Assembly (NCBI GenBank): GCA_017522915.1 | Contig: JAFWXX010000053.1 | Location: 1 to 57,488, forward strand | DNA from: Bacteroidaceae bacterium | GTDB lineage: Bacteria > Bacteroidota > Bacteroidia > Bacteroidales > Bacteroidaceae | Length of the DNA: 57,488 nt | Reading direction: 5' to 3' | Shown: piece by piece, positions 30,154 to 42,468 of the stretch | Position numbering within the stretch: position 1 is the first letter of the stretch | Layout of the letters: every line of letters begins with the position of its first letter | The notes under the pieces: generated by a model | Databases searched by the model: none | Told to the model about the DNA's origin: nothing | The model's input: only the letters and a program-made list of their open reading frames with translations | Translations under genes and position numbers: made by a program

Positions 30154-31422
30154 ATGAAGATATTGCTTTTAGGTAGCGGAGGCCGCGAACATGCTCTTGC
30201 GTGGAAGATAGCTCAAAGTCCAAAGGTCGATAAACTGTTCATTGCTCCTGGCAATGCCGGAACAAAGGAGGTTGGCGAGAATGTAGATATCAAGGTTACA
30301 GACTTTGATTCCATTGCGGCCTTTGTGCTCGAAAATGGTGTTGATATGGTTGTTGTCGGTCCTGAGGACCCGCTGGTAAAAGGCATCTATGACTATTTTC
30401 AGGATAGTGAGGCTCTTAAAGGCATCTCTGTCATTGGGCCGACTAAGGCTGCGGCCGAGCTTGAGGGAAGCAAGAGCTTTGCAAAGGACTTCATGCAGCG
30501 TCATTCAATTCCTACAGCAGCATACAAGGCTTTTACTGCTGCAGAGAAAGGGGATGCATACCAGTTCCTTGAGGGGCTTAAGGCTCCGTATGTCCTGAAA
30601 GCCGATGGCCTTTGTGCAGGAAAGGGAGTGCTTATTTTGCCTACATTGGAAGAGGCAAAGAGCAGTCTTGATGAGATGTTCGACGGTATGTTCGGAGACT
30701 CTTCGGCAACAGTTGTCATAGAGGAGTTTCTCGATGGCATTGAGTGTTCTGTATTTGTTCTCACCGACGGAAAGGATTATGTAATATTGCCGGAAGCAAA
30801 GGACTACAAGCGCATAGGTGAGGGAAATACCGGGCTGAATACAGGAGGTATGGGTTCTATCTCGCCTGTTCCTTTCGCAACGCCTGAGTGGATGAAGAAG
30901 GTCGAGGAGAGGATAATACGTCCGACTGTCGATGGCCTTGTAAAGGATAATCTGCTGTATAAGGGATTTATCTTCTTCGGTCTGATAAATGTTGATGGCG
31001 AGCCGATGGTAATCGAGTACAATGTGCGTATGGGTGACCCTGAAACAGAGTCAGTTATGCTCCGTCTCAAGAGTGATATTGTAGAACTGTTCGAAAAGGT
31101 TGCATCCGGAACTCTGGCCGGAACCTCTGTTGAGTTTGACGAACGCAATGCAGTATGTGTGATGCTTGTGTCGGGAGGATACCCCGAACATTACGGCAAG
31201 GGCTACGAAATAACCGGTTTCGAGAATGTGAAGGATAGCATCCTGTTCCATGCCGGAACCGCCGATAAAGACGGCAAGGTTGTTACAGCCGGTGGCCGTG
31301 TCATAGCTGCTGTGTCATATGGTTCTACTCGTGCCGAGGCTTTGGAGAAATCGTTCAAGGCTGCAAATGCGATTGATTTCGAAAAGAAATACTTTAGGGG
31401 AGATATAGGCTTTGATTTATAA
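30154..31422 (+). CDS. purD: Phosphoribosylamine-glycine ligase
   Basis: The second step of purine synthesis, ligating glycine to phosphoribosylamine with ATP. 422 residues, standard length: N-terminal [31 protein letters not shown], an ATP-grasp domain with [11 protein letters not shown] and the [16 protein letters not shown] signature, and a C-terminal domain with the sugar-nucleotide-like [16 protein letters not shown] loop. The stop region overlaps a TTG start of the next gene by 11 bp. Confidence 0.96.
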
Positions 31423-32380
31423 CAAGTCGATACAAGGACGTTTCGTTACAGGAATATTTACAATGCCGGTGCTGCTGTCATGCGCTCTGGCATTGTGGCT
31501 TTTTGTGGCAATAGCCGGAGAATTCAGGGATGATGTTTTGTCGTCATCAGCTCCCTCATGCAATTTTTTGACAAGATCGTTGTCATTGCTGTGTTACATA
31601 GCTGTTGCCTTTATATTGAACCATCTTCATCTTTTTGAGAGAAGGGTGGGGTGGCTCATGTCGCTATTTATATGGCTTATTGCCCTTTCAATGCATGTCA
31701 GCTATGATTTCCATGTCGCCTTTTCTGCAATGGCACTGGCTGCATCTGTAGCTATGCTCTTCTCGTGTCAGGTTACGGCTGAGCATGAGAGGGTTCTGTT
31801 TGCTGTTTTTGCACTTATAGGAAGTGTGTCATTGCTCACTCCTGTCTTTTTATTGATATTGCCGGTACTGGTGTCATTTACCTTTATCTCGAATACAATT
31901 ACTGTGAAGAGGGGCTTTGCTATGCTGCTTGGCTTGTTGACGCCTTTCTGGTTGATTTTCGGTGCTTCTTATGTGTATGAGCCGGCTCGAATGCTGTTTT
32001 CGGGCATGCAAGGCTTCTTTACCGGCGGAATGTTCATGGTTGCAATGCCTCCGTTCCATATACTATTGTCCGTAGTTGCCGAACTGTTGGTTCTTGTCCC
32101 GGCATCAGTGCTTTTTTTTACCTCTTCATCTCCCGGCAAGCCTGTATTGAGGAAGAGACTCAGTCTTGTACTTTTGCTCAACAGTTATCTGATGTTGTTG
32201 TCGTTTCTCCTTCCTTTGCATAGCGAACTGCTTTATGCGTGCCGTATTCCGGGTACAGCGGTTCTGATGTCGTATTTATTTATACAGAAAATAACAAAGT
32301 TGTCAAATATATACTTTATATTTGTGAATCTGTTTTGGGTTTCTTTTGCATCATATAGCCTATGGATGGGACTGTTTTAG
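31412..32380 (+). CDS. Multi-pass membrane protein, unknown
   Basis: 322 residues from a TTG start at 31412 that overlaps the end of purD by 11 bp; the first internal ATG would be 31463, 17 residues later, leaving a cleaner hydrophobic start. The protein has about eight membrane segments with short loops. No catalytic motif or known signature is visible. The overlap on the upstream side and a 19-bp overlap with the next membrane-protein gene suggest translational coupling in a purD operon. I do not recognise the family. Confidence 0.65.
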
Positions 32381-32854: not shown

Positions 32855-33631
32855 TTAGTATGATGCCGATGCCTTTATTCCGGATTCTTGCAGCAGGGCT
32901 ACGATTCTGTCAAGTTCTTCCTTAGTTGCTTTTGACAACCCGTCTTGTGGGGTTTCGCGGTCTATTGTATATATCATCACTTCGCGCGGTACAATTTTCT
33001 TTACTGCTTCAAGCCAGGGCAATACGTATTTGTCTGTAGTGTTGTCAAGCTCCTTGCCGTCAACAGTACCTTTGAGGAACATGGTCTGTATAACGGCTCT
33101 TCCATTGAAAGCCTTCATCTTTTCGATGATTGCACTAAGGTCGTATCTCCCCGTAGGGCGGTCAAGCGTCCTTATGTAGTCTGCATCAACGGTGTCGAGT
33201 TTCAGTATGTTGTTGTCGACCTTGCATAGTGCTTCAAAAACCTTCTCCCTCGTTATCAGTGTGGCATTTGTCAGCACACTTACCTTTGCTTTCGGGCAGT
33301 ACCTGTCACGCAACGCAATGGTGTCATCGATTATATCATTGAATTGCGGGTGGATGGTGGGTTCGCCGTTGCCTGCAAATGTAAGGACATCAGGCAGTGC
33401 ATCTTCTCTGCTCATTTCTATGAGTTTTTTCTCTAATGCATCAGCGACCTCTTCCCGTGTAGGCAACGGAGACTTTGCTCTTCTGTCGGTGTTGAATCCG
33501 CATTCGCAATAGAGGCAGTCGAATGTACACACTTTGCCGTCGTTGGGCAATAGGTTTATTCCTAATGATATTCCGAGTCTGCGGCTTTTTACCGGGCCGA
33601 ATATCGGAGATGGGAAGAGTATTGTAGGCAT
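32855..33631 (-). CDS. Radical SAM protein (COG0731-like)
   Basis: 258 residues. The 4Fe-4S cluster motif CxxxCxxC is at CTFDCLYC, near residue 35, preceded by GPVKSRRLGISLGINLLP. The SAM-binding region TFAGNGEPTIHP matches the GxGEPT box. This architecture, close to archaeal/eukaryal TYW1-like tRNA-modification enzymes but without their flavodoxin half, is widely found in bacteria with no assigned substrate. It stands alone on the minus strand. Confidence 0.85.
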   Translation of the reverse strand: MPTILFPSPIFGPVKSRRLGISLGINLLPNDGKVCTFDCLYCECGFNTDRRAKSPLPTREEVADALEKKLIEMSREDALPDVLTFAGNGEPTIHPQFNDIIDDTIALRDRYCPKAKVSVLTNATLITREKVFEALCKVDNNILKLDTVDADYIRTLDRPTGRYDLSAIIEKMKAFNGRAVIQTMFLKGTVDGKELDNTTDKYVLPWLEAVKKIVPREVMIYTIDRETPQDGLSKATKEELDRIVALLQESGIKASASY

Positions 33632-33654
33632 AAGTCTATAATTGTTGTCTTGTA

Positions 33655-33683
33655 CAAAGATAGCAATAAATATTTAACATCAA
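33655..33683 (-). promoter_or_regulatory. Promoter for the radical SAM gene
   Basis: Minus strand TTG (33681-33683), 18-bp spacer, TATCTTTG (33655-33662), 24 bases before the ATG. Confidence 0.6.
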
Positions 33684-33758
33684 TAGGTTGTAAAAGGATG
33701 TGATACGAGCAATGATACCAAATTGCAGGGCATGTCTGTATTTTTGCCGTTGCAAGTG

Positions 33759-33787
33759 TTGAAAAAGAATATTTTTTCGTAAGTTTG
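33759..33787 (+). promoter_or_regulatory. Promoter for the surface-glycan/phosphonate gene cluster
   Basis: TTG (33759-33761), 18-bp spacer, TAAGTTTG (33780-33787). A second TAnnTTTG match, TATTTTTG, lies at 33739-33746. Both precede the kinase gene and no later clear promoter is seen before 36660. Confidence 0.5.
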
Positions 33788-33870
33788 TGGATGATAGCAA
33801 CATTATTGTCAATTCCGTATGAATCTTTTTATGGGATTGCGTTGTGTGCAGGCAGAAAGACGGTTATGGT

Positions 33871-34638
33871 ATGAAAATTGTTATAGCAGCAGAATTCGAG
33901 TATCTTAAAGGATGGTTGTCCTCCATAGACAGGCTTATGGAGGCACCTGATGACAAAATACTTTATAATGGGCGTAATAAGATTGTTCTGTGTTGTTCTC
34001 CGCAGGGAGACAAACTTGTTATAAAAAGATATAAAAAGCATAATATAATAAAAAGGATTGTTTATACGCTTTTCAAGCCTAACAAGGCAAAACGTGCATT
34101 CAGGAATGCCGTGGAGTTGAGAAACAGAAACTTTGATACGCCACACGAGGTTGCCTATGCCGAGAAAAGTTGTTTTGGCTTTATAACCCAGGTCTATTAT
34201 GTATGCGCTTTTACAGACGGCAAGAGTGTCCGTTCGGAATTGATAGAACGTGAACCCTATAATGCAGATCTTGCTGGTGCATATGCCGGATTTGTTGCAT
34301 CTTTGCACGATGCGGGGGTCTTGCATAAGGATTTGAATCCAACTAATGTCTTGTATAGAAAGGAACAGGGTTCCTACAGGTTTGAATTGATTGACATCAA
34401 CAGGATGCGATTTTACGAAGAGGCGGTGCCCAAAAAGGAGTGTATGGAGAATCTTACCCTTTTCTGGTGGCTTACCGACGTTTACAGGTATGTTCTTGGC
34501 AAGTATGCCATGAATAGGGGATGGTCGCAGAATGATGTGGATGAGGCTGTGCGTGTCAAGCAGCGTCACGACCGTAGTTGGGTTAGAAGAAAGAAATTTA
34601 CAGGATTAATAAAGAAGTATATTTTAGGAAAGAGATAG
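33871..34638 (+). CDS. LPS core sugar kinase, Kdo kinase/WaaP/InaA-like
   Basis: 255 residues from the ATG at 33871; a GTG at 33844 would add nine residues. It has an eukaryotic-like kinase fold: the ATP-binding Lys in VIKRYK (about 50-55), a catalytic loop HKDLNPTN at 152-159 with Asp154 and Asn159, and the metal-binding Asp in LIDINR. These match the lipopolysaccharide kinases that phosphorylate Kdo or heptose of the inner core. In Bacteroidales, phosphorylated Kdo is the expected product, but the acceptor is an inference. It is the first gene of the glycan cluster and the GT10 gene starts 2 bp downstream. Confidence 0.82.
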   Translation: MKIVIAAEFEYLKGWLSSIDRLMEAPDDKILYNGRNKIVLCCSPQGDKLVIKRYKKHNIIKRIVYTLFKPNKAKRAFRNAVELRNRNFDTPHEVAYAEKSCFGFITQVYYVCAFTDGKSVRSELIEREPYNADLAGAYAGFVASLHDAGVLHKDLNPTNVLYRKEQGSYRFELIDINRMRFYEEAVPKKECMENLTLFWWLTDVYRYVLGKYAMNRGWSQNDVDEAVRVKQRHDRSWVRRKKFTGLIKKYILGKR

Positions 34639-34640
34639 CA

Positions 34641-35660
34641 GTGATGAAAAAGGTTCTTATTTTGACACAAGACCCCTTGGTCAGCCTGAGGCAAACTGTT
34701 GGTGGCAACGGTATCAGTGATGATGGGAAATGCCGTTTCTATATAAACGATATTGACTCGTCTCCCGATTTTATTGTTGTCAAGGGTAAAGGTATAAGTT
34801 CTGCTAAACAGTTTCAGCTCCCCAAGAACAGGACGATGCTTGTCACATGTGAACCTTACGGGATAGTGGAATACCCTAGAGGTTATTGTGAACAGTTCGG
34901 AACAGTCCTTGCATGTCAGCCGGGTCTTAAGGTTTCTCCCGGAAGCGGAACCAGAGTGATATATACTCCAGCCGTATTGCCATGGTTTGTCGGCGGTATT
35001 TTTGAGAATGGCGGCTGCAGAATAACGAGAAACCGTGAGGAGATACTGTTGTCTGAGCCAAAGAAAGAGAAATTTATGTCTGTCGTGACAAGCAAGAAGG
35101 CATTCACAAAAGGTCATGTTGACAGGCTCCGTTTTATAAGAAAACTGAAAGACAGGTTCGGTGACAAGGTTGATATCTTCGGTGGAGGGTTCAAACGTTT
35201 TGATGACAAATGGGATGCAATAGCTCCTTATAAGTATCACATTGTCATAGAGAACTCTGAATGCGACTATTATTGGACTGAGAAGCTGTCCGATTGTTAT
35301 CTGGCAGGAGCCTATCCTTTGTATCATGGCTGTACCAATGTGAAGGAGTATTTTCCTGAGTCGTCATTTACCCCAATAGACATATGCGATTTCGATAGTG
35401 TGGCGGAGATAATAAACAAGATAGACAAAGAAGGAACATATGAAAAGAATCTTGATGCTATCAATGATGCGAAGCTTAGGGTTGTAGGCGAGCACAATAT
35501 GTTCAATATTATTGCAAGGGCTGTTTCTGAGATAGAAATGGACAATTTGGAGGGAACGACCGAAATAAAACCGGCTTCATCTTTCTTCTCTCTCCATAAT
35601 CTCTATCTTCATACAATAGAATGGAGTTATTATAAACTCCTAGGCAGATATTTTTTGTAA
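34641..35660 (+). CDS. Glycosyltransferase family 10 (fucosyltransferase-like)
   Basis: 339 residues. The C-terminal half carries the GT10 signature YKYHIVIENSECDYYWTEKL (about 197-216), followed by LAGAYPLYHGCTNVKEYFPESSF, which corresponds to the family's ENS...DY-x-TEKL and AxPVV-x-G blocks that bind the GDP-sugar. Most characterised members are alpha-1,3/1,4-fucosyltransferases using GDP-fucose. The N-terminal half is divergent, as is usual for acceptor-side domains. Position among LPS-type genes suggests decoration of a surface glycan. Sugar and linkage cannot be deduced. Confidence 0.82.
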   Translation: MMKKVLILTQDPLVSLRQTVGGNGISDDGKCRFYINDIDSSPDFIVVKGKGISSAKQFQLPKNRTMLVTCEPYGIVEYPRGYCEQFGTVLACQPGLKVSPGSGTRVIYTPAVLPWFVGGIFENGGCRITRNREEILLSEPKKEKFMSVVTSKKAFTKGHVDRLRFIRKLKDRFGDKVDIFGGGFKRFDDKWDAIAPYKYHIVIENSECDYYWTEKLSDCYLAGAYPLYHGCTNVKEYFPESSFTPIDICDFDSVAEIINKIDKEGTYEKNLDAINDAKLRVVGEHNMFNIIARAVSEIEMDNLEGTTEIKPASSFFSLHNLYLHTIEWSYYKLLGRYFL

Positions 35661-35682
35661 TGTACAAGAAAACCGGTACTGT

Positions 35683-36513
35683 ATGATGAAGAAGTTTACT
35701 GTAGGAATAGTCATCTCAACGTATAATAATCCCCGATGGCTCGAAAAGACATTGTGGAGCTATGAGGTACAGAGTGTGGTACCCGATGAGGTTATAATTG
35801 CCGATGACGGTTCGGGTGAAGAGACTCGTATGCTTATAGACAGCTTCAAGGCATCATTGCCGATAAAGCATGTATGGCACAAGGATGAAGGCTTCCGTAA
35901 GACAAGGATTTTGAATGAGGCATTGCGCGTAGCGACATCCGATTATCTAATCTTCACCGATCAGGATTGTGTCGCAAGGCCCGATTTCATCGAGACGCAT
36001 CTGCGTTTTGCACGTGAGAGGTATATCCTGTCGGGGGGATATTTCAAGCTGCCAATGGATATAAGCGAATGTATTACACGTGAAGATATCATGTGCGGAC
36101 GTGCCTTCACTCTTGATTGGCTTGTAGGCAAGGGATTGAAGAGGAACTTCAAATGTACTAAACTTTTCAACAGCAGATGGTTCTCGGCCTTCATGAATTT
36201 TATTACTCCGGCAAAAGCGACGTGGAACGGCATGAATTCAAGCGGGTGGAGAAGAGATATCTTGGCCGTAAATGGATTTGATGAGCGAATGCAGTACGGC
36301 GGTGAAGATAGAGAAATGGGTGAGCGTATGTTCAACAACGGAATACGGTCGAAGCAGATACGCTATTCTGCGATAATACTTCATCTCGACCATAAACGGC
36401 CTTATGTTAACGCTGAGGCTCTTGAACGTAATAAGGCAATACGCAAAGAGACAAAACGTCTTAATAGAGTGACTACAGAGTTTGGTTTAGGCATGAGAGA
36501 GGATTGCGAATGA
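35683..36513 (+). CDS. Glycosyltransferase family 2
   Basis: 276 residues with the GT-A start VGIVISTYNNPRWLEKTLWS, the nucleotide-binding DDGSGEETR, the metal-binding FTDQDCVARPDF (a DxD-like DQD) and a probable catalytic region GGEDREMGERM. The chain is soluble with no membrane segment, so it acts at the cytoplasmic face. Galactosyl-type GT2 enzymes in LPS core loci look similar. Start may be either of two consecutive ATG codons at 35683 and 35686. It is 22 bp after the GT10 gene, in the same operon by spacing. Confidence 0.87.
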   Translation: MMKKFTVGIVISTYNNPRWLEKTLWSYEVQSVVPDEVIIADDGSGEETRMLIDSFKASLPIKHVWHKDEGFRKTRILNEALRVATSDYLIFTDQDCVARPDFIETHLRFARERYILSGGYFKLPMDISECITREDIMCGRAFTLDWLVGKGLKRNFKCTKLFNSRWFSAFMNFITPAKATWNGMNSSGWRRDILAVNGFDERMQYGGEDREMGERMFNNGIRSKQIRYSAIILHLDHKRPYVNAEALERNKAIRKETKRLNRVTTEFGLGMREDCE

Positions 36514-36659
36514 GGTGTCTTTCTTGTTTAAGGTGTGCTGAACGGCACTTTGATACAAGACGTAGCTATGTGGATGTGCTTCTTGAGGTAAGAAGAGAGT
36601 ATAAATAAACGCTCTATGTTTAGAAGATTAAAGAACAAAAGATTCAAAAATAAATAGAT

Positions 36660-37970
36660 ATGAGCAAGAAAGTTTATCTTGGCATGATTGCAGATATCAT
36701 GCATCCGGGACTTACAAATATCATTAACGAAGGAACCAAGTACGGTGATGTTGTAATAGGCCTCTTTACAGACAAAGCAATTGCAACACATAAGCGTCTT
36801 CCCTATCTCAACTATGAGCAGCGTAAGGAGGTTCTGATGAATATAAAAGGTGTTAGCGAAATTGTCCCGCAGGATGAGTGGAGTTATGTCCCTAACCTCT
36901 TGAGATATAAACCGGATTATATAATCCATGGGGATGATTGGGTTCAGGGCCCCGACAAGTATATCCGCGATGAGGTCTTCAAGGTTATGGAGAAGATAGG
37001 CGGAAAGGTGATAGAGATTCCCTATACCCAAGGTATAACCTCTTCGGGGTTGGCAAATGAGCTTGCTTCTCTTGGAACGACACCTCAGGCACGTCTTTCA
37101 TCTTTGCGACGCTTGATATCAGCCAAGCCGATAGTCCGCATCCTAGAATCGCATAATGGTCTTACCGGCCTTATTGCAGAGCATACCAGTGTTGATGTTG
37201 ACGGCCAGCATAGGGAGTTCGACGGAATGTGGTCCTCTTCGTTGACCGATTCTACAAGCAAAGGCAAGCCCGATATTGAAGCGGTTGACCTGACAACACG
37301 TTTGCATGACCTTAACGATACCCTTGAGGTAACGACAAAGCCGATTATCTTTGACGGTGATACAGGCGGCAAGGTAGAACACTTCGGTTTTACTGTACGT
37401 ACACTTGAGAGGTTGGGAATCTCGGCTGTCATAATAGAAGATAAGGTCGGTCTTAAGCAGAACTCACTTTTTGGTACGGATGCAGTGCAGACACAGGACA
37501 CGATAGAGGGGTTCTGCACAAAGATAAAGGCCGGAAAGGATGCCCAGATAACACGTGATTTCATGATAATTTCGCGTTGTGAGTCGCTTATAGCCGGAAA
37601 GTCTGTGGACGATGCGCTAGAGCGTTGCCATGCCTATGTAGAAGCCGGCGCAGACGGAATCATGATACACTCAAAGGACAAGAGCGGTGAGGATGTCAAG
37701 GAGTTCTGCAAGCGTTTCAGAGAAAAAGACAAGCATACTCCAATAGTTGCAGTTCCCACTACATACAACCAGTTTACCGAGGAAGAACTTGCAGAGTGGG
37801 GCATAAACATTGTCATTTATGCCAATCACATGCTTCGTTCGGCATATCCTGCAATGGTAAAGTGTGCCGAAACAATTCTCACCTGTAGCAGAAGCCTTGA
37901 GGCTGCCGACAAGTACTGTATGCCAATCAAGCAGATACTTAACCTTATCCCCGGAACAAAGAAAAAGTAA
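36660..37970 (+). CDS. aepX: Phosphoenolpyruvate mutase fused to a degenerate cytidylyltransferase-like domain
   Basis: 436 residues. Residues about 1-135 are a glycerol-3-phosphate-cytidylyltransferase-like domain, and about 150-436 are PEP mutase, which converts PEP to phosphonopyruvate and makes the first C-P bond. The PEP mutase signature EDKVGLKQNS is at 260-269, and the metal-binding DGDTGG at 232-237. In the N-terminal domain the HxGH motif reads HPGL (15-18) and the later ISST-type motif reads ITSS. AepX proteins of Bacteroides capsule loci have the same layout. It heads the three-gene AEP pathway; aepY starts 6 bp after its stop. Confidence 0.92.
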   Translation: MSKKVYLGMIADIMHPGLTNIINEGTKYGDVVIGLFTDKAIATHKRLPYLNYEQRKEVLMNIKGVSEIVPQDEWSYVPNLLRYKPDYIIHGDDWVQGPDKYIRDEVFKVMEKIGGKVIEIPYTQGITSSGLANELASLGTTPQARLSSLRRLISAKPIVRILESHNGLTGLIAEHTSVDVDGQHREFDGMWSSSLTDSTSKGKPDIEAVDLTTRLHDLNDTLEVTTKPIIFDGDTGGKVEHFGFTVRTLERLGISAVIIEDKVGLKQNSLFGTDAVQTQDTIEGFCTKIKAGKDAQITRDFMIISRCESLIAGKSVDDALERCHAYVEAGADGIMIHSKDKSGEDVKEFCKRFREKDKHTPIVAVPTTYNQFTEEELAEWGINIVIYANHMLRSAYPAMVKCAETILTCSRSLEAADKYCMPIKQILNLIPGTKKK

Positions 37971-37976
37971 ACCAAT

Positions 37977-39107
37977 ATGATAAGTCCAAAATTTTTCATT
38001 GACAAGCTGGGCTCATTAGGCATTGATTTCTTTGCCGGTGTGCCGGACAGCCTTTTGAAGAATATATGTGCATATATCTCGGACAATGTTGACTCAGAGC
38101 ATAATATAATAGCTGCCAATGAGGGCGGTGCTGTCGGCCTTGCTGCCGGATATCATCTTGCGACAGGCCGTATAGGTTGCGTTTATATGCAGAACTCCGG
38201 TGAAGGAAATGTGATAAACCCTCTTGCATCTTTGACAGATAAAGAGGTCTATAATATCCCGGTTCTGTTGCTCATAGGCTGGAGAGGGCGTCCGGGTGTG
38301 CACGATGAGCCTCAGCATGTGAAACAGGGAAAGATAACAACAGGCCTTCTCAATACTATGGGTATCAACTTCGATGTTCTTAGCAAGGATGAGGAAAAGG
38401 CTTCAAGGCAGATAGAGAAGGCTGTTGAGGCTATGAAGGAGACGAATGAGGTATATGCGCTGGTTATAGAGAAGGATACTTTTGATACATATATGCTTCA
38501 GAATGCCGAGCAGAACGGCTATACAATGACACGTGAAGAGGCTATCGGCCTGGTTGCATCATCAATGGACAAATGCGATGCTGCAGTGGGCACTACCGGA
38601 ATGATAAGCCGCGAACTGTTTGAGTACCGCGAGAGTGCAGGTGAAGGTCATGAACGCGATTTCCTTACTGTCGGTGCTATGGGGCATGCTTCACAGATAG
38701 CTCTGGGTATCGCTCTTATGAAGCCGGAACGTAAGGTTTGGTGTTTCGACGGTGATGGAGCAAGCATAATGCATATGGGTTCTATGGCCATTGTGTCGAG
38801 CAAGTCACCAAAGAACTATGTGCATGTCATTTTTAATAATGGAGCACATGACTCTGTCGGTGGCCAGCCGACAGTAGGTCTTAAGATAGATTTCCCTATG
38901 ATTGCCAGGGCTTTAGGGTATAAGAGTGTGCTGAGCGTCGATAGTAGGAGTGCTCTTGAAGAGATTCTCCCTTCGATAAAAGAGTGTGAAGGTCCGGTTT
39001 TGCTCGAAGTTAAGGTCAAGAAGGGCAATAGAAAGGATCTGGGAAGGCCAACTACTACGCCGGTGCAGAATAAAGAGGCTTTGATGGAATTCCTTGAAAA
39101 ACAATAA
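37977..39107 (+). CDS. aepY: Phosphonopyruvate decarboxylase
   Basis: A thiamin diphosphate enzyme that pulls the unfavourable PEP mutase reaction forward by turning phosphonopyruvate into phosphonoacetaldehyde. In 376 residues, an N-terminal PYR-type domain (NEGGAVGLAAGYHLATG with the conserved Glu) precedes the ThDP-binding domain containing GDGASIMHMGSM and NNGAHDSVGGQPT (about 260-300). It lies directly after aepX and 3 bp before phnW, the standard pathway order. Confidence 0.93.
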   Translation: MISPKFFIDKLGSLGIDFFAGVPDSLLKNICAYISDNVDSEHNIIAANEGGAVGLAAGYHLATGRIGCVYMQNSGEGNVINPLASLTDKEVYNIPVLLLIGWRGRPGVHDEPQHVKQGKITTGLLNTMGINFDVLSKDEEKASRQIEKAVEAMKETNEVYALVIEKDTFDTYMLQNAEQNGYTMTREEAIGLVASSMDKCDAAVGTTGMISRELFEYRESAGEGHERDFLTVGAMGHASQIALGIALMKPERKVWCFDGDGASIMHMGSMAIVSSKSPKNYVHVIFNNGAHDSVGGQPTVGLKIDFPMIARALGYKSVLSVDSRSALEEILPSIKECEGPVLLEVKVKKGNRKDLGRPTTTPVQNKEALMEFLEKQ

Positions 39108-39110
39108 GCT

Positions 39111-40235
39111 ATGAATATAAAGAGAAATGTCCTTTTGAATCCGGGGCCTGCAACGACGACCGATACTGTCAAGCTGGCTCAAGTCGTGCCTGATATCTGT
39201 CCTCGCGAGAAGGAATTTGCCGGGCTTATGAAAAAGCTCCGTTCCGACCTTCTTAGGCTTGTACATGCCCCGGAGGGCGAATATACATCGGTGTTGTTCT
39301 GCGGTTCAGGAACCATAAATATAGATGTATGTATCAACTCTCTGTTGCCGGAGGGTAAGAAGATTCTTATAGTAAACAACGGGGCCTACAACTCACGTGC
39401 CGTAGAGGTATGCGAGATGTACCGTCTTCCGCATATAAATCTTCAGTTCAGTGTGTATGAACAGCCCGACCTTGATGCTGTAAAAGCAGCTCTTGATGCT
39501 AATACCGATGTTGCTGTTGTCTATTGTTGTCACCATGAGACCGGTACAGGAATATTGAACCCAATAAGGGAAATCGGTGCGATGGCACATGAGCATGGGG
39601 CAATCTTTGTCAGCGATACGACATCGACTCTTGGCATGATACCTCTTAATGTGGTTGACGATAATGTTGACTTCTGCATGGCGTCGGCCCAGAAGGGTCT
39701 TATGGCTATGTCGGGATTGTCGTTCATAATAGGCAAGACCGATATTATAAAGGCTTCTAAGAACTATCCTACACGTTCGTACTATTGCAACCTCTATCTG
39801 CAGTATGAATATTTCGAGAAGACCGGGGAGATGCACTTTACTCCTCCCGTACAGACAATCTATGCAACAATACAGGCTCTGAAAGAGTATTTCGAGGAGG
39901 GTGAGGCTGCTAAGTTCGCCCGTCATAGAGCTGTCTATGAGGCGATACATGATGGGCTTGACAAGCTCGGCCTTGAAACAGTAATCGACCGCAACATCGA
40001 ATCGGGTCTTGTTGTCTCTGTAAAGTATCCCGATGACCCGAACTGGGATTTCGAGAAGGTACACGATTACTGCTATGAAAGAGGATTTACAATATATCCG
40101 GGCAAGATAAGTACCACGAATACTTTCAGGTTATGTTCGTTAGGCAAGATATTCCCGAAGGATATCGAAGATTTCTTTGTCGTTTTGGGTGAGGCTCTTG
40201 ACGTGTATGACATAAAAACAGCTAGAAATGGTTAG
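39111..40235 (+). CDS. phnW: 2-aminoethylphosphonate-pyruvate transaminase
   Basis: A fold-type I PLP enzyme that converts phosphonoacetaldehyde to 2-aminoethylphosphonate (in the biosynthetic direction). In 374 residues the PLP-anchoring Lys is probably Lys195 in ASAQKGL, with FVSDTTSTLG upstream (Asp169). The N-terminal LLNPGPATTT is characteristic. No phnX or phnA-type degradation gene is next to it; the neighbours are a synthesis and attachment set, which supports a biosynthetic role. The next gene overlaps its end by 8 bp. Confidence 0.92.
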   Translation: MNIKRNVLLNPGPATTTDTVKLAQVVPDICPREKEFAGLMKKLRSDLLRLVHAPEGEYTSVLFCGSGTINIDVCINSLLPEGKKILIVNNGAYNSRAVEVCEMYRLPHINLQFSVYEQPDLDAVKAALDANTDVAVVYCCHHETGTGILNPIREIGAMAHEHGAIFVSDTTSTLGMIPLNVVDDNVDFCMASAQKGLMAMSGLSFIIGKTDIIKASKNYPTRSYYCNLYLQYEYFEKTGEMHFTPPVQTIYATIQALKEYFEEGEAAKFARHRAVYEAIHDGLDKLGLETVIDRNIESGLVVSVKYPDDPNWDFEKVHDYCYERGFTIYPGKISTTNTFRLCSLGKIFPKDIEDFFVVLGEALDVYDIKTARNG

Positions 40236-40947
40236 GACAGCAGTAATAATGGCTGCCGGTCTCGGTACCCGCTTCGGCAAGATGACCGAAACACAGCCCA
40301 AAGGTTTCATAGAGGTCGGTGGAATCTCAATGATAAGGCGTTCCATAGAAACTCTGCTTTCATGCGGAATAGAGCGCATAGTAATAGGAACCGGATACAA
40401 GAAAGAGTGCTACGAGGCTTTGTGCGAGGAGTATCCCCAAATAGAGTGTGTATATTCTCCACGATATGCCGAGACAAACAGCATGTACACGCTGTATAAT
40501 TGCCGTGAAGCAATAGGTGACAGTGATTTTCTTCTTCTGGAGTCCGATATCGTGTTCAATGCCGATGCAGTCAAGGAGATACTTTCCGATGTGCATGAGA
40601 ACATAATGCTTATAACACCGGTAATAAAATTTCAGGACCAGTATTATGTGATGCATGATGAGAATGGCACGCTTGTTGCTTGCTCTACCGACAAGGATGT
40701 GCTGGATGCGCAAGGGGAACTGGTCGGAATACATAGAATATCATCACTGTTCTATCATGTAATGTGTGACGAATATGCCGGCATTGTGGAGGAGAAACCC
40801 AAATTGGGTTACGAGTATATGCTTCTTGATATGTCCCGGAATAAAATTCCGGTATATGTACTCAACTCAAGCGTTGCCAAGTGGTATGAGATTGACGACG
40901 AGCGGGATTTGAAATACGCCGAAGAAAATATTATAGGACTTTTTTGA
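40228..40947 (+). CDS. pntC: LicC/PntC-like cytidylyltransferase, probable CTP:2-AEP
   Basis: 239 residues of the nucleotidyltransferase fold: the P-loop-like AAGLGTRFGKMTETQPKGF (about 9-27, Lys25 for the CTP phosphates), TNSMYTLYNCREAI, the metal Asp in ESDIVF, and C-terminal WYEIDDERDL. LicC, which makes CDP-choline in Haemophilus and Streptococcus, has the same signature. Because it overlaps phnW by 8 bp and follows the AEP pathway, CMP-AEP is the more likely product, as for the fused PntC of Treponema. Choline kinase and choline transport genes are not in the window, which argues against CDP-choline. Confidence 0.78.
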   Translation: MVRTAVIMAAGLGTRFGKMTETQPKGFIEVGGISMIRRSIETLLSCGIERIVIGTGYKKECYEALCEEYPQIECVYSPRYAETNSMYTLYNCREAIGDSDFLLLESDIVFNADAVKEILSDVHENIMLITPVIKFQDQYYVMHDENGTLVACSTDKDVLDAQGELVGIHRISSLFYHVMCDEYAGIVEEKPKLGYEYMLLDMSRNKIPVYVLNSSVAKWYEIDDERDLKYAEENIIGLF

Positions 40948-40967
40948 GTGTCATTTAAATTAAGAAT

Positions 40968-41804
40968 ATGGCAAATAATTCTACAAAGGCAGGATACGAC
41001 ATAAAAGAACTGCATGCCAAGATGCTTGATATACTTTCGGCTATTGACGAGACTTGCCGCAAGTATAATCTGCGTTATTATCTTATTGCCGGTACGATGT
41101 TGGGTGCTGTACGTCATAAGGGCTTTATACCTTGGGATGATGATGCTGATATCTGTATGCCTCATAGTGATTATGACAAACTTATAGCACATAGCAATGA
41201 GTGGCTGCCAGAACGCTATGAACTTATTTGTGCTGAGAATGACAAGGACTATCCGCAGCCCTTTGCAAAGATACAGGATTCCCACACAACTATAATTGAA
41301 CATGCTCACTTGAGGTATTTGGGCGGAGCATATATAGATGTCTTTCCTCTTGACGGCATGCCGGACGGGAAATGGGCGCAGCGTTGGCACTATTTCAAGT
41401 ACAAGCATTTTTGCAAGTTGCTCTATTTTACATACCGCGATCCATACAGGCATGGCCGTGGCCCCAGTTCATGGTTGCCTCTTCTTTGCAGGAAGCTATA
41501 TACTGTCGAAGGATTGCAGAAGAAGATACGCAAGCTGTTGACAAAATATGATTTCTATAAATGCAAGAAGGTTCTTTGCTTTGACGATGGTTTAAAGAGC
41601 ATTGTTGACAGAGATGTTTACGGCACTCCAAGCCCATACACATTCGAAGGACGTGAACTGTTAGGTGTAGAGGATTATGATACCTTGCTTAAGCAAATGT
41701 ATGGCGATTATATGAAGCTTCCTCCTGTAGAACATCAAAGGCAGCATAATTTCTATTATTTGGATTTGGATACTCCTTATCGTGAATATAAGGGTGACAA
41801 GTAA
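40968..41804 (+). CDS. LicD-family phosphotransferase, probable AEP transferase to a glycan
   Basis: 278 residues. The family signature GTMLGAVRHKGFIPWDDD (about 42-59), with its cluster of Asp residues for metal binding, is intact. LicD enzymes move a phospho-amine (phosphocholine in known cases) from a CDP donor to a sugar. With a CMP-AEP-making enzyme 20 bp upstream, I infer transfer of aminoethylphosphonate. The glycan acceptor is unknown; LPS core sugars are likely from the neighbours. The gene ends at a shared terminator with the rnhA gene. Confidence 0.85.
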   Translation: MANNSTKAGYDIKELHAKMLDILSAIDETCRKYNLRYYLIAGTMLGAVRHKGFIPWDDDADICMPHSDYDKLIAHSNEWLPERYELICAENDKDYPQPFAKIQDSHTTIIEHAHLRYLGGAYIDVFPLDGMPDGKWAQRWHYFKYKHFCKLLYFTYRDPYRHGRGPSSWLPLLCRKLYTVEGLQKKIRKLLTKYDFYKCKKVLCFDDGLKSIVDRDVYGTPSPYTFEGRELLGVEDYDTLLKQMYGDYMKLPPVEHQRQHNFYYLDLDTPYREYKGDK

Positions 41805-41845
41805 ATAGAAATCGGAAAAGCAGTGCTTTTCCGATTTCTATTTAC
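41801..41845. terminator. Bidirectional terminator shared by licD-type gene and rnhA
   Basis: A perfect 21-bp stem (41801-41821 with 41825-41845) and a 3-base loop. The TAA stop of the plus-strand gene (41802-41804) and the TAA of the minus-strand gene (41842-41844) both lie inside the stem. Confidence 0.92.
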
Positions 41846-42468
41846 TTTCTGCCGAAGTCGGCAGGTATCTCTCCCCATTTGTCTGTCTCCCACTTGAGGA
41901 GTGTTGTGGTATATCTGTTCTCTTTTAGCCACTTCTCGGCTCTTTCGATGTAGCCGAACAGTTCTTCGCTCTTGCTGTTGCGCGGCAGCTTTGTCTTGCA
42001 CTGTTTCTGTTTCACCCAAAGGAGCGCATTGCGGCTGTCGGAATATATAGGAAGCTCTATTCCTTTCTGCTTCAGCAGTGCCAAGCCGTGTACAATGGCA
42101 AGGAACTCTCCGATATTGTTGGTTCCGTACATGGGCCCGAAATGGAATATCTCCTCGCCGGTCCCGACATATACTCCCCTGTATTCCATCTTTCCCGGAT
42201 TGCCGCTGCATGCCGCATCTACGGCAAGGGCATTGGGTATAACCTCTGCCGGCAATCCGTCGGGTTTCCTGTTGCTCTTCTCTTTTGCAGAATTGCCAAT
42301 GTACTGCTGCGGTGTGGAACTGTAGGCCCTTTCGGCCTCCTCCAGCGTGTCGAAAGCCTTGTAGAGTGCCTGCTTTACACCTTTAATCTGTGCCTGGCAC
42401 TCATCCCAGGTGTTGTATATGCCTGGCTCAAGGCCGTTCCACACAACATAGAATCGCTTCTTGCCCAT
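41842..42468 (-). CDS. rnhA: Ribonuclease HI with N-terminal hybrid-binding (viroplasmin-like) domain
   Basis: Cuts RNA in RNA-DNA hybrids. In 208 residues an N-terminal RNA-DNA hybrid-binding domain (about 4-50, YVVWNGLEPGIYNTWDECQ) is joined by a linker to the RNase H domain (about 80-208). Catalytic acidic residues are Asp84 (VDAACSGNPG), Glu121 (NNIGEFLAIVHG), Asp144 (IYSDSRNALLW) and a C-terminal Asp, probably Asp204 in IPADFGRK. It appears to be transcribed with argS, whose stop is 35 bp upstream. Confidence 0.92.
   Translation of the reverse strand: MGKKRFYVVWNGLEPGIYNTWDECQAQIKGVKQALYKAFDTLEEAERAYSSTPQQYIGNSAKEKSNRKPDGLPAEVIPNALAVDAACSGNPGKMEYRGVYVGTGEEIFHFGPMYGTNNIGEFLAIVHGLALLKQKGIELPIYSDSRNALLWVKQKQCKTKLPRNSKSEELFGYIERAEKWLKENRYTTTLLKWETDKWGEIPADFGRK

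Follow-up and report, generated by a model that had tools for sequence, protein, structure and literature searches.

The closest described relative of the system considered here is the phosphonyl-tailoring (Pnt) pathway known from Treponema denticola, Atopobium rimae and Olsenella uli. According to its description (Rice et al., 2019; PMC6697681), phosphoenolpyruvate (PEP) mutase (Ppm), phosphonopyruvate decarboxylase (Ppd), 2-aminoethylphosphonate (AEP) transaminase (AEPT) and the cytidylyltransferase PntC are encoded there with LicD-like or glycosyltransferase (GT) genes, and Ppm is fused to a nucleotidyltransferase with a second one nearby. We analyzed a 57,488-nt contig of a gut bacterium, Bacteroidaceae bacterium (JAFWXX010000053.1, assembly GCA_017522915.1; the whole contig is called the window below), in which a run of eight genes at 33871–41804 shares these features and the PntC residues of that pathway. 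Unlike the Pnt systems as described there, the window has a fused domain without the second His of its HxGH motif, a free-standing PntC (fused to AEPT in T. denticola), a kinase/GT10/GT2 gene set and a location at a variable chromosomal site.

Three other known systems resemble the window in part. Fom1 of the fosfomycin pathway (5x3d) has the same two-domain order, cytidylyltransferase followed by PEP mutase, but its HPGH motif reads HPGL in the window, and the genes that follow are for AEP here and for hydroxyethylphosphonate (HEP) in the fosfomycin pathway. The lic (LicA/LicC/LicD) phosphocholine system shares the logic of a cytidylyltransferase paired with LicD; unlike it, the window's run is without a choline kinase and has an AEP-type PntC. 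The Bacteroides fragilis capsule bears AEP on GlcN (PMC12413058) and is a Bacteroidales example of a surface polysaccharide carrying this group; the likeness would be one of product, the window's glycan being not necessarily a capsule. Because PMC6697681 already describes this kind of pathway, the locus is less unusual than an earlier note on this DNA took it to be in rating it less familiar. New here are the remains of an additional LicD gene (LicD2), a lineage-wide loss of the HxGH His, a site with alternative cargo, a probable donor swap and a spread across phyla.

The run is very probably a single exchangeable cassette through which AEP is attached to a surface glycan. PEP mutase, Ppd and AEPT would produce AEP, the free-standing PntC would convert it to CMP-AEP, and LicD would transfer the AEP group from CMP-AEP onto a glycan hydroxyl. 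The GT2 and GT10 enzymes are predicted to add the sugars of the acceptor, which these GT genes suggest is likely a glycan, and the kinase possibly phosphorylates one glycan sugar. In the cytidylyltransferase domain that forms part of the mutase protein, the second His of HxGH is gone, and PntC rather than this domain is probably the working activator. Each reaction, the acceptor and co-transcription are what we infer.

The sequence itself shows which genes are present and to which families they belong, as well as the residues typical of PntC, the LicD2 relic and the variable chromosomal site. PEP mutase, Ppd and AEPT each exceed the NCBIfam equivalog cut-offs; the mutase scores 412 bits against the curated cut-off of 319.6 for TIGR02320 and satisfies the true-PEP-mutase motif EDKXXXXXNS (EDKVGLKQNS). 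Typical motifs were found in the mutase, Ppd, AEPT, LicD, GT10 and the kinase. Among solved structures, the best match of PntC is Treponema PntC (6pd1, 3.3e-45), compared with 3.6e-15 for pneumococcal LicC (1jyk). When PntC rows were aligned to the published T. denticola sequence (Tde-PntC), Arg15, Lys25, Glu104 and Glu196 were kept in 55/55 rows (46 distinct), the window's included. Rice et al. attribute the AEP selectivity of PntC to steric limits and place Glu104 and Glu196 near the amine in Tde-PntC, where LicC has Asp (PMC6697681). The route from PEP through phosphonopyruvate, phosphonoacetaldehyde and AEP to CMP-AEP, proposed in the earlier note, is well supported by the NCBIfam cut-offs, the 6pd1 match and these residues. 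LicD has an intact WDDDxD catalytic block and among solved structures matches FKRP (0.0026); the kinase matches protein kinases alone, and weakly (0.0013 at best).

The 146-bp gap between GT2 and the mutase, recorded at this length in the earlier note, contains a gene relic that had been overlooked. In two sister genomes (G012 and G027) an intact LicD2 gene lies between GT2 and the mutase. At the DNA level the gap aligns to the 3' end of LicD2 with scores of 83 (G027; maximum of 100 shuffles, 53) and 71 (G012; maximum 50). At the protein level a single frame scores 77, 71, 74 and 66 against four LicD2 proteins (300-shuffle maximum 40–45), and the match continues in a different frame. These alignments indicate that the gap is a gene relic and that the ancestor had GT2, LicD2 and the mutase side by side. 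The relic thus ties GT2 to the mutase half of the run and indicates that the two halves belonged together. In G012 the LicD gene itself (L062, 2620–3444) holds an internal TAG, either a real loss or an assembly error.

Linkage across the family points the same way. In a sample of 301 family genomes (mutase in 49, a HisC-like gene, described below, in 39, kinase in 125), 29 have both kinase and mutase, and in 12 of these a kinase homologue is found no more than 12 kb from the mutase (0.28 expected); for kinase and HisC-like gene the same distance limit is respected in 12 of 21 genomes (0.20 expected). Kinase, GT10 and LicD also stand with AEP genes in another genus (g15; L103 of G216), and both donor types lie near the kinase in G214 and G276. 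The connection between the two halves, put forward earlier as an inference, is backed by the relic together with the kinase–mutase linkage.

Missed previously was the two-domain structure of the PEP mutase, whose N-terminal part is a fused CTP_transf_like domain. This domain is nearest to the Fom1 cytidylyltransferase (5x3d, 1.5e-42; aligned residues 5–133). The second His of HxGH is important in this nucleotidyltransferase superfamily. Among 130 rows (95 distinct) the motif reads HPGL in 92, HPGY in 2 and HHGY in 1 of the distinct sequences, and is intact in 0/95. The rows came from genus and family genomes and from a scan with six patterns derived from the query, and were counted at >45% identity and >380 aa; the sample is therefore one of close relatives. 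By contrast, the motif is intact in 6/6 mutases of a different family within the phylum. It is also kept, as HSGH and HGGH, in two distant family proteins. With the second His absent from 95/95 distinct close relatives, PntC probably does the activation, and the fused domain, although conserved, is probably not the working activator. A candidate rule that a fusion with intact HxGH goes without PntC was not upheld: two of the six other-family genomes have no PntC match at 1e-8, and four have one ~7.7 kb from the mutase (28–30% identity).

The assignment of PntC and LicD to AEP, and of AEP to a glycan, can be set against two other readings. The LicD and LicC families are known chiefly from phosphocholine systems, and in three congeners related LicDs adjoin LicC-like enzymes, which would fit a PntC/LicD pair that handles phosphocholine or phosphoethanolamine while AEP from the first three enzymes goes elsewhere. 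We regard this as highly improbable: Pfam finds no choline kinase among the eight ORFs (open reading frames; the remaining genome was not searched for one), PntC is much nearer to Tde-PntC than to LicC and has Glu at 104 where LicC has Asp, and the AEPT gene runs 8 bp into the PntC gene. Alternatively, AEP and CMP-AEP could be made in the same way and LicD could put AEP on a membrane lipid or glycolipid, giving a phosphonolipid, instead of on a polysaccharide or lipopolysaccharide (LPS) glycan. The sole NCBIfam match of LicD is a diacylglycerol (lipid) cholinephosphotransferase, and GT2 and GT10 could make a short glycolipid, the run being without a polymerase or flippase. That match, however, is far under its cut-off (76 bits against 225), GT10, GT2 and kinase genes recur beside LicD, and the known Bacteroidales case is a capsule (PMC12413058), so a lipid acceptor seems unlikely.

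Similarly improbable is a fused domain that is active despite HPGL, activating AEP or HEP while PntC would be an additional or redundant enzyme for this step. The domain shows good conservation, is near the active Fom1 and partly keeps a GITSS-type motif, and the four other-family genomes that pair an intact-HxGH fusion with a PntC-like gene indicate that two activators can coexist; the uniform loss of the second His in close relatives, set against its presence in Fom1 and the other-family mutases, argues otherwise. We also judge it quite unlikely that the kinase–GT10–GT2 half and the AEP half are unrelated neighbors joined by chance at a gene-gathering site. In G012 and G027 the AEP half stands with GT2 and a galactofuranosyltransferase-like gene, with no GT10 match and no adjoining kinase, and kinase and mutase are not neighboring in 17 of the 29 family genomes with both (mostly on different draft contigs). 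Against chance stand the position of the LicD2 relic between GT2 and the mutase, a kinase–mutase linkage far above expectation and the grouping in genus g15. A single cassette for AEP decoration of a surface glycan is the reading we prefer. Weighing against it, besides the unlinked kinases and the cholinephosphotransferase match, are a kinase threshold that admits distant homologues, the absence by Pfam of any glycan export or polymerization gene from the run, and the fate of Tde-PntC Lys153, which is Thr in 44/55 rows (the window's too) and Val in 11/55. PMC6697681 gives the Lys153Ala mutant an activity below 10% and describes Lys153 as partially conserved. Given that description, Lys153 is no strict Pnt criterion; its replacement in all 55 rows counts against an exact copy of the Tde-PntC mechanism.

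The cassette occupies a site bordered by a radical-SAM gene and an RNase H gene, both present in 44/44 congeners (all draft genomes; some absences may be assembly loss). Between the borders there is nothing (14–112 bp) in 13 genomes (7 by sequence, 6 by coordinates alone), PF00884 membrane transferases in 23, the AEP cassette in 2 (G000 and G027, the RNase H gene of G027 being cut by the contig end) and other GTs in 2 (G002 and G020). The site is unreadable in 4; the borders are on separate contigs in G001, G006, G032 and G033. PF00884 was assigned by hmmscan for 5 proteins and by blastp to three of these for the remainder. These 5 are similar to lipoteichoic acid synthase, phosphoglycerol transferase or YejM, with scores far below the cut-offs in the 4 scanned. 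Among the 23 genomes the site is rearranged in G008 and G014, and a GT2 63–65% identical to the window's shares it with PF00884 genes in 6. Overall, the site (32855–42468; L207–L238) holds alternative surface-decoration genes across the 44 congeners, mostly PF00884.

The mutase is present in 3/44 congeners (G000, G012 and G027); weaker matches cover the N-terminal domain only. Three other congeners (G016, G017 and G023) have a LicD 62–65% and a kinase 57–63% identical to the window's, accompanied by GT10 and GT2 in G016 and G017 and by other GTs in G023. In place of the AEP genes these loci carry a HisC/CobD-like enzyme and a nucleotidyltransferase. The window's site is empty in all three, as in G012, their kinase/LicD loci being elsewhere. 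The G016 nucleotidyltransferase matches LicC at 4.1e-20 versus 8.9e-14 for Tde-PntC, and the LicC-like nucleotidyltransferases have the LicC-type Asp at 104, with Glu at 196, in 4/4. The HisC-like enzyme could be assigned to neither HisC nor CobD, as it falls under both cut-offs (219/277 bits for HisC, 122/291 for CobD); its best solved matches are mostly named histidinol-phosphate aminotransferase. LicDs from AEP-type and HisC-type loci cluster in a single clade (97/96) that leaves out six further LicDs of the genus. Several other-genus LicDs in that clade lie some kb from AEP genes or on the opposite strand, and the LicD of one AEP locus (L149) groups with LicD2 on a long branch. Within the genus, AEP-linked and HisC-linked LicDs may or may not be sisters.

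The alternative donor is possibly phosphoethanolamine, because, for a LicD that uses CMP-AEP, the phosphate counterpart would be the easiest substitute. For the HisC-like enzyme, precedents reportedly exist in Campylobacter in the form of a serine-phosphate decarboxylase and a dihydroxyacetone-phosphate aminotransferase; our search of the open-licence literature returned nothing on the former. Tentatively, and with rather more doubt than belief, we propose that within one genus a shared acceptor set (kinase, GT genes, LicD and LicD2) may be fed by exchangeable donor cassettes, the second leading via phosphoserine decarboxylation to CDP-ethanolamine, that the site would exchange surface head groups, and that the fused domain would be a conserved non-catalytic one. 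No paper describing such a donor swap was found in the open-licence literature (subscription papers were outside the search).

The nearest named mutase records are from Bacteroidaceae metagenome-assembled genomes (MAGs) of water-buffalo and roe-deer cecum (95 and 94% identity), followed by a Bacteroidales MAG (92%) and Fibrobacter MAGs (88–91%). A quick tree of 83 mutases groups 16 Fibrobacter rows in a single clade (SH-aLRT 98), places it as the sister group of the clade with the window's mutase (98) and embeds it within Bacteroidota. In one Fibrobacter locus (L142) the identities are 88% for the mutase, 79% for Ppd, 69% for PntC and 83% for AEPT; ArgS from four Fibrobacter genomes is 29% identical to the window's. 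The sixteen rows come from several studies, which argues against a binning error, and all are MAGs. The simplest reading of these sequences would be one transfer from Bacteroidota to Fibrobacter. Fibrobacter mutases (L122–L136, L142, L146) are nearer to the window's than are most from its own family.

Analysis of the mutase loci also revealed two variant arrangements. Among 80 named loci there are 21 (11 Fibrobacter, 9 Bacteroidota and 1 Thermoguttaceae-titled MAG; L122–L125, L127, L128, L130, L131, L133, L134, L140, L141, L146, L151, L156, L157, L166, L167, L181, L185 and L197) in which the mutase, accompanied by Ppd in 20/21, stands with at least three of four further genes (metallophosphatase, NAD epimerase, DUF6564 and saccharopine-dehydrogenase-like) instead of AEPT/PntC. 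L166 alone among them has an AEPT match (23%). These loci possibly represent an undescribed phosphonate route; no paper on 'DUF6564' was found in the open-licence literature. In L176, L178, L179, L183, L184 and L186 a PntC-like domain lies within proteins of 581–591 aa, and the N-terminal part of the L176 protein matches LPG_synthase_TM.

Features of the window are collected in Table 1. The eight genes, their order and their common strand were as first noted, and are borne out by the ORF coordinates and the Pfam and NCBIfam matches.

Table 1. The AEP run, its borders and associated signals in the window.
Feature	Position	Strand	Evidence
Kdo/WaaP-family (protein-kinase-like) sugar kinase	33871..34638	+	PF06293 2.6e-9; motif HKDLNPTNVL
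GT10 (fucosyltransferase-family) glycosyltransferase	34644..35660	+	PF00852 1.2e-12; motif IENSECDYYWTEK
GT2 glycosyltransferase	35683..36513	+	PF00535 7.9e-21
Decayed 3' end of LicD2, in the 146-bp gap	36549..36654	+	DNA and protein alignments
Fusion of Fom1-like cytidylyltransferase domain (~residues 1–140, HPGL) and PEP mutase (149–433)	36660..37970	+	PF01467, PF13714; TIGR02320; 5x3d 1.5e-42
Phosphonopyruvate decarboxylase (Ppd)	37977..39107	+	TIGR03297 508 bits, cut-off 312.5
AEP transaminase (AEPT)	39111..40235	+	TIGR03301 461 bits, cut-off 360.8
PntC, CTP:AEP cytidylyltransferase	40228..40947	+	NTP_transf_3 family match; 6pd1 3.3e-45; Tde-PntC residues Arg15, Lys25, Glu104, Glu196 kept
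LicD-family transferase	40968..41804	+	PF04991 3.2e-44; motif GTMLGAVRHKGFIPWDDDAD
Radical-SAM gene, left border of variable site	32855..33631	-	PF04055; 44/44 congeners
RNase H gene, right border of variable site	41842..42468	-	PF01693, PF00075; 44/44 congeners
Perfect 24-bp inverted repeat, 1-nt loop	41799..41847	.	spans ends of convergent LicD and RNase H genes
TAAGTTTG, match to Bacteroidota -7 promoter element TANNTTTG	33780..33787	+	84 bp upstream of kinase ATG

Kinase and GT10 are separated by 2–5 bp (depending on the start codon) and GT10 and GT2 by 22 bp; in the AEP half the spacings are 6 bp (mutase–Ppd), 3 bp (Ppd–AEPT), the AEPT–PntC overlap and 20 bp (PntC–LicD). The gaps of 3–6 bp with an 8-bp overlap noted earlier therefore hold through PntC and fail for PntC–LicD. 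The kinase could start at ATG 33871 or GTG 33844; we favor the ATG because many alignments to homologues start at query residue 9 or 10, the place of this Met. Matches to TANNTTTG, which we take to be the Bacteroidota -7 promoter element, number 55 in the window against 38.6 expected; besides the one at 33780, another lies at 33739. None occurs on the + strand at 35005–37345, hence none inside the 146-bp gap; the upstream matches sit solely before the kinase, which we count in favor of a single cassette. The inverted repeat between LicD and RNase H is a probable two-way terminator. When the borders of the cassette were searched for repeats, short, mostly two-copy direct repeats and this terminator-like inverted repeat came up, and no feature resembling an insertion boundary.

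The run lies between a UptA-like gene with the radical-SAM gene and RNase H with ArgS; further neighbors are PurD, an ORF without known family, rhomboids and SecDF. They include no LPS-core or lipid A gene, and the position of the run, at a site of variable content, does not support the LPS/lipooligosaccharide-core locus of the earlier note; a GT10 homologue adjoins a lipid A acyltransferase only in a locus of another genome (L067). The 322-aa ORF at 31412–32380, which adjoins the UptA-like gene, has no Pfam match and is 35–57% identical in congeners where seen.

For surveys of phosphonate genes, these results counsel caution. In the 2019 survey (PMC6697681) a PF01467 domain fused to PEP mutase is counted as nucleotidyl activation, and such fused domains may be non-catalytic in gut Bacteroidales and Fibrobacter. 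Although prediction makes surface phosphonates common among bacteria, few are characterized. Relatives with a related LicD and kinase that carry either the AEP or the other donor cassette, with the site empty or otherwise filled, make it testable why a cell would adopt a C–P bond rather than a phosphate ester. If the proposed swap is true, the same glycan would bear phosphoethanolamine in some species and, in others, AEP, the phosphonate analogue that resists hydrolysis, and the site, occupied elsewhere by LtaS/YejM-like transferases, would be a place of surface head-group exchange.

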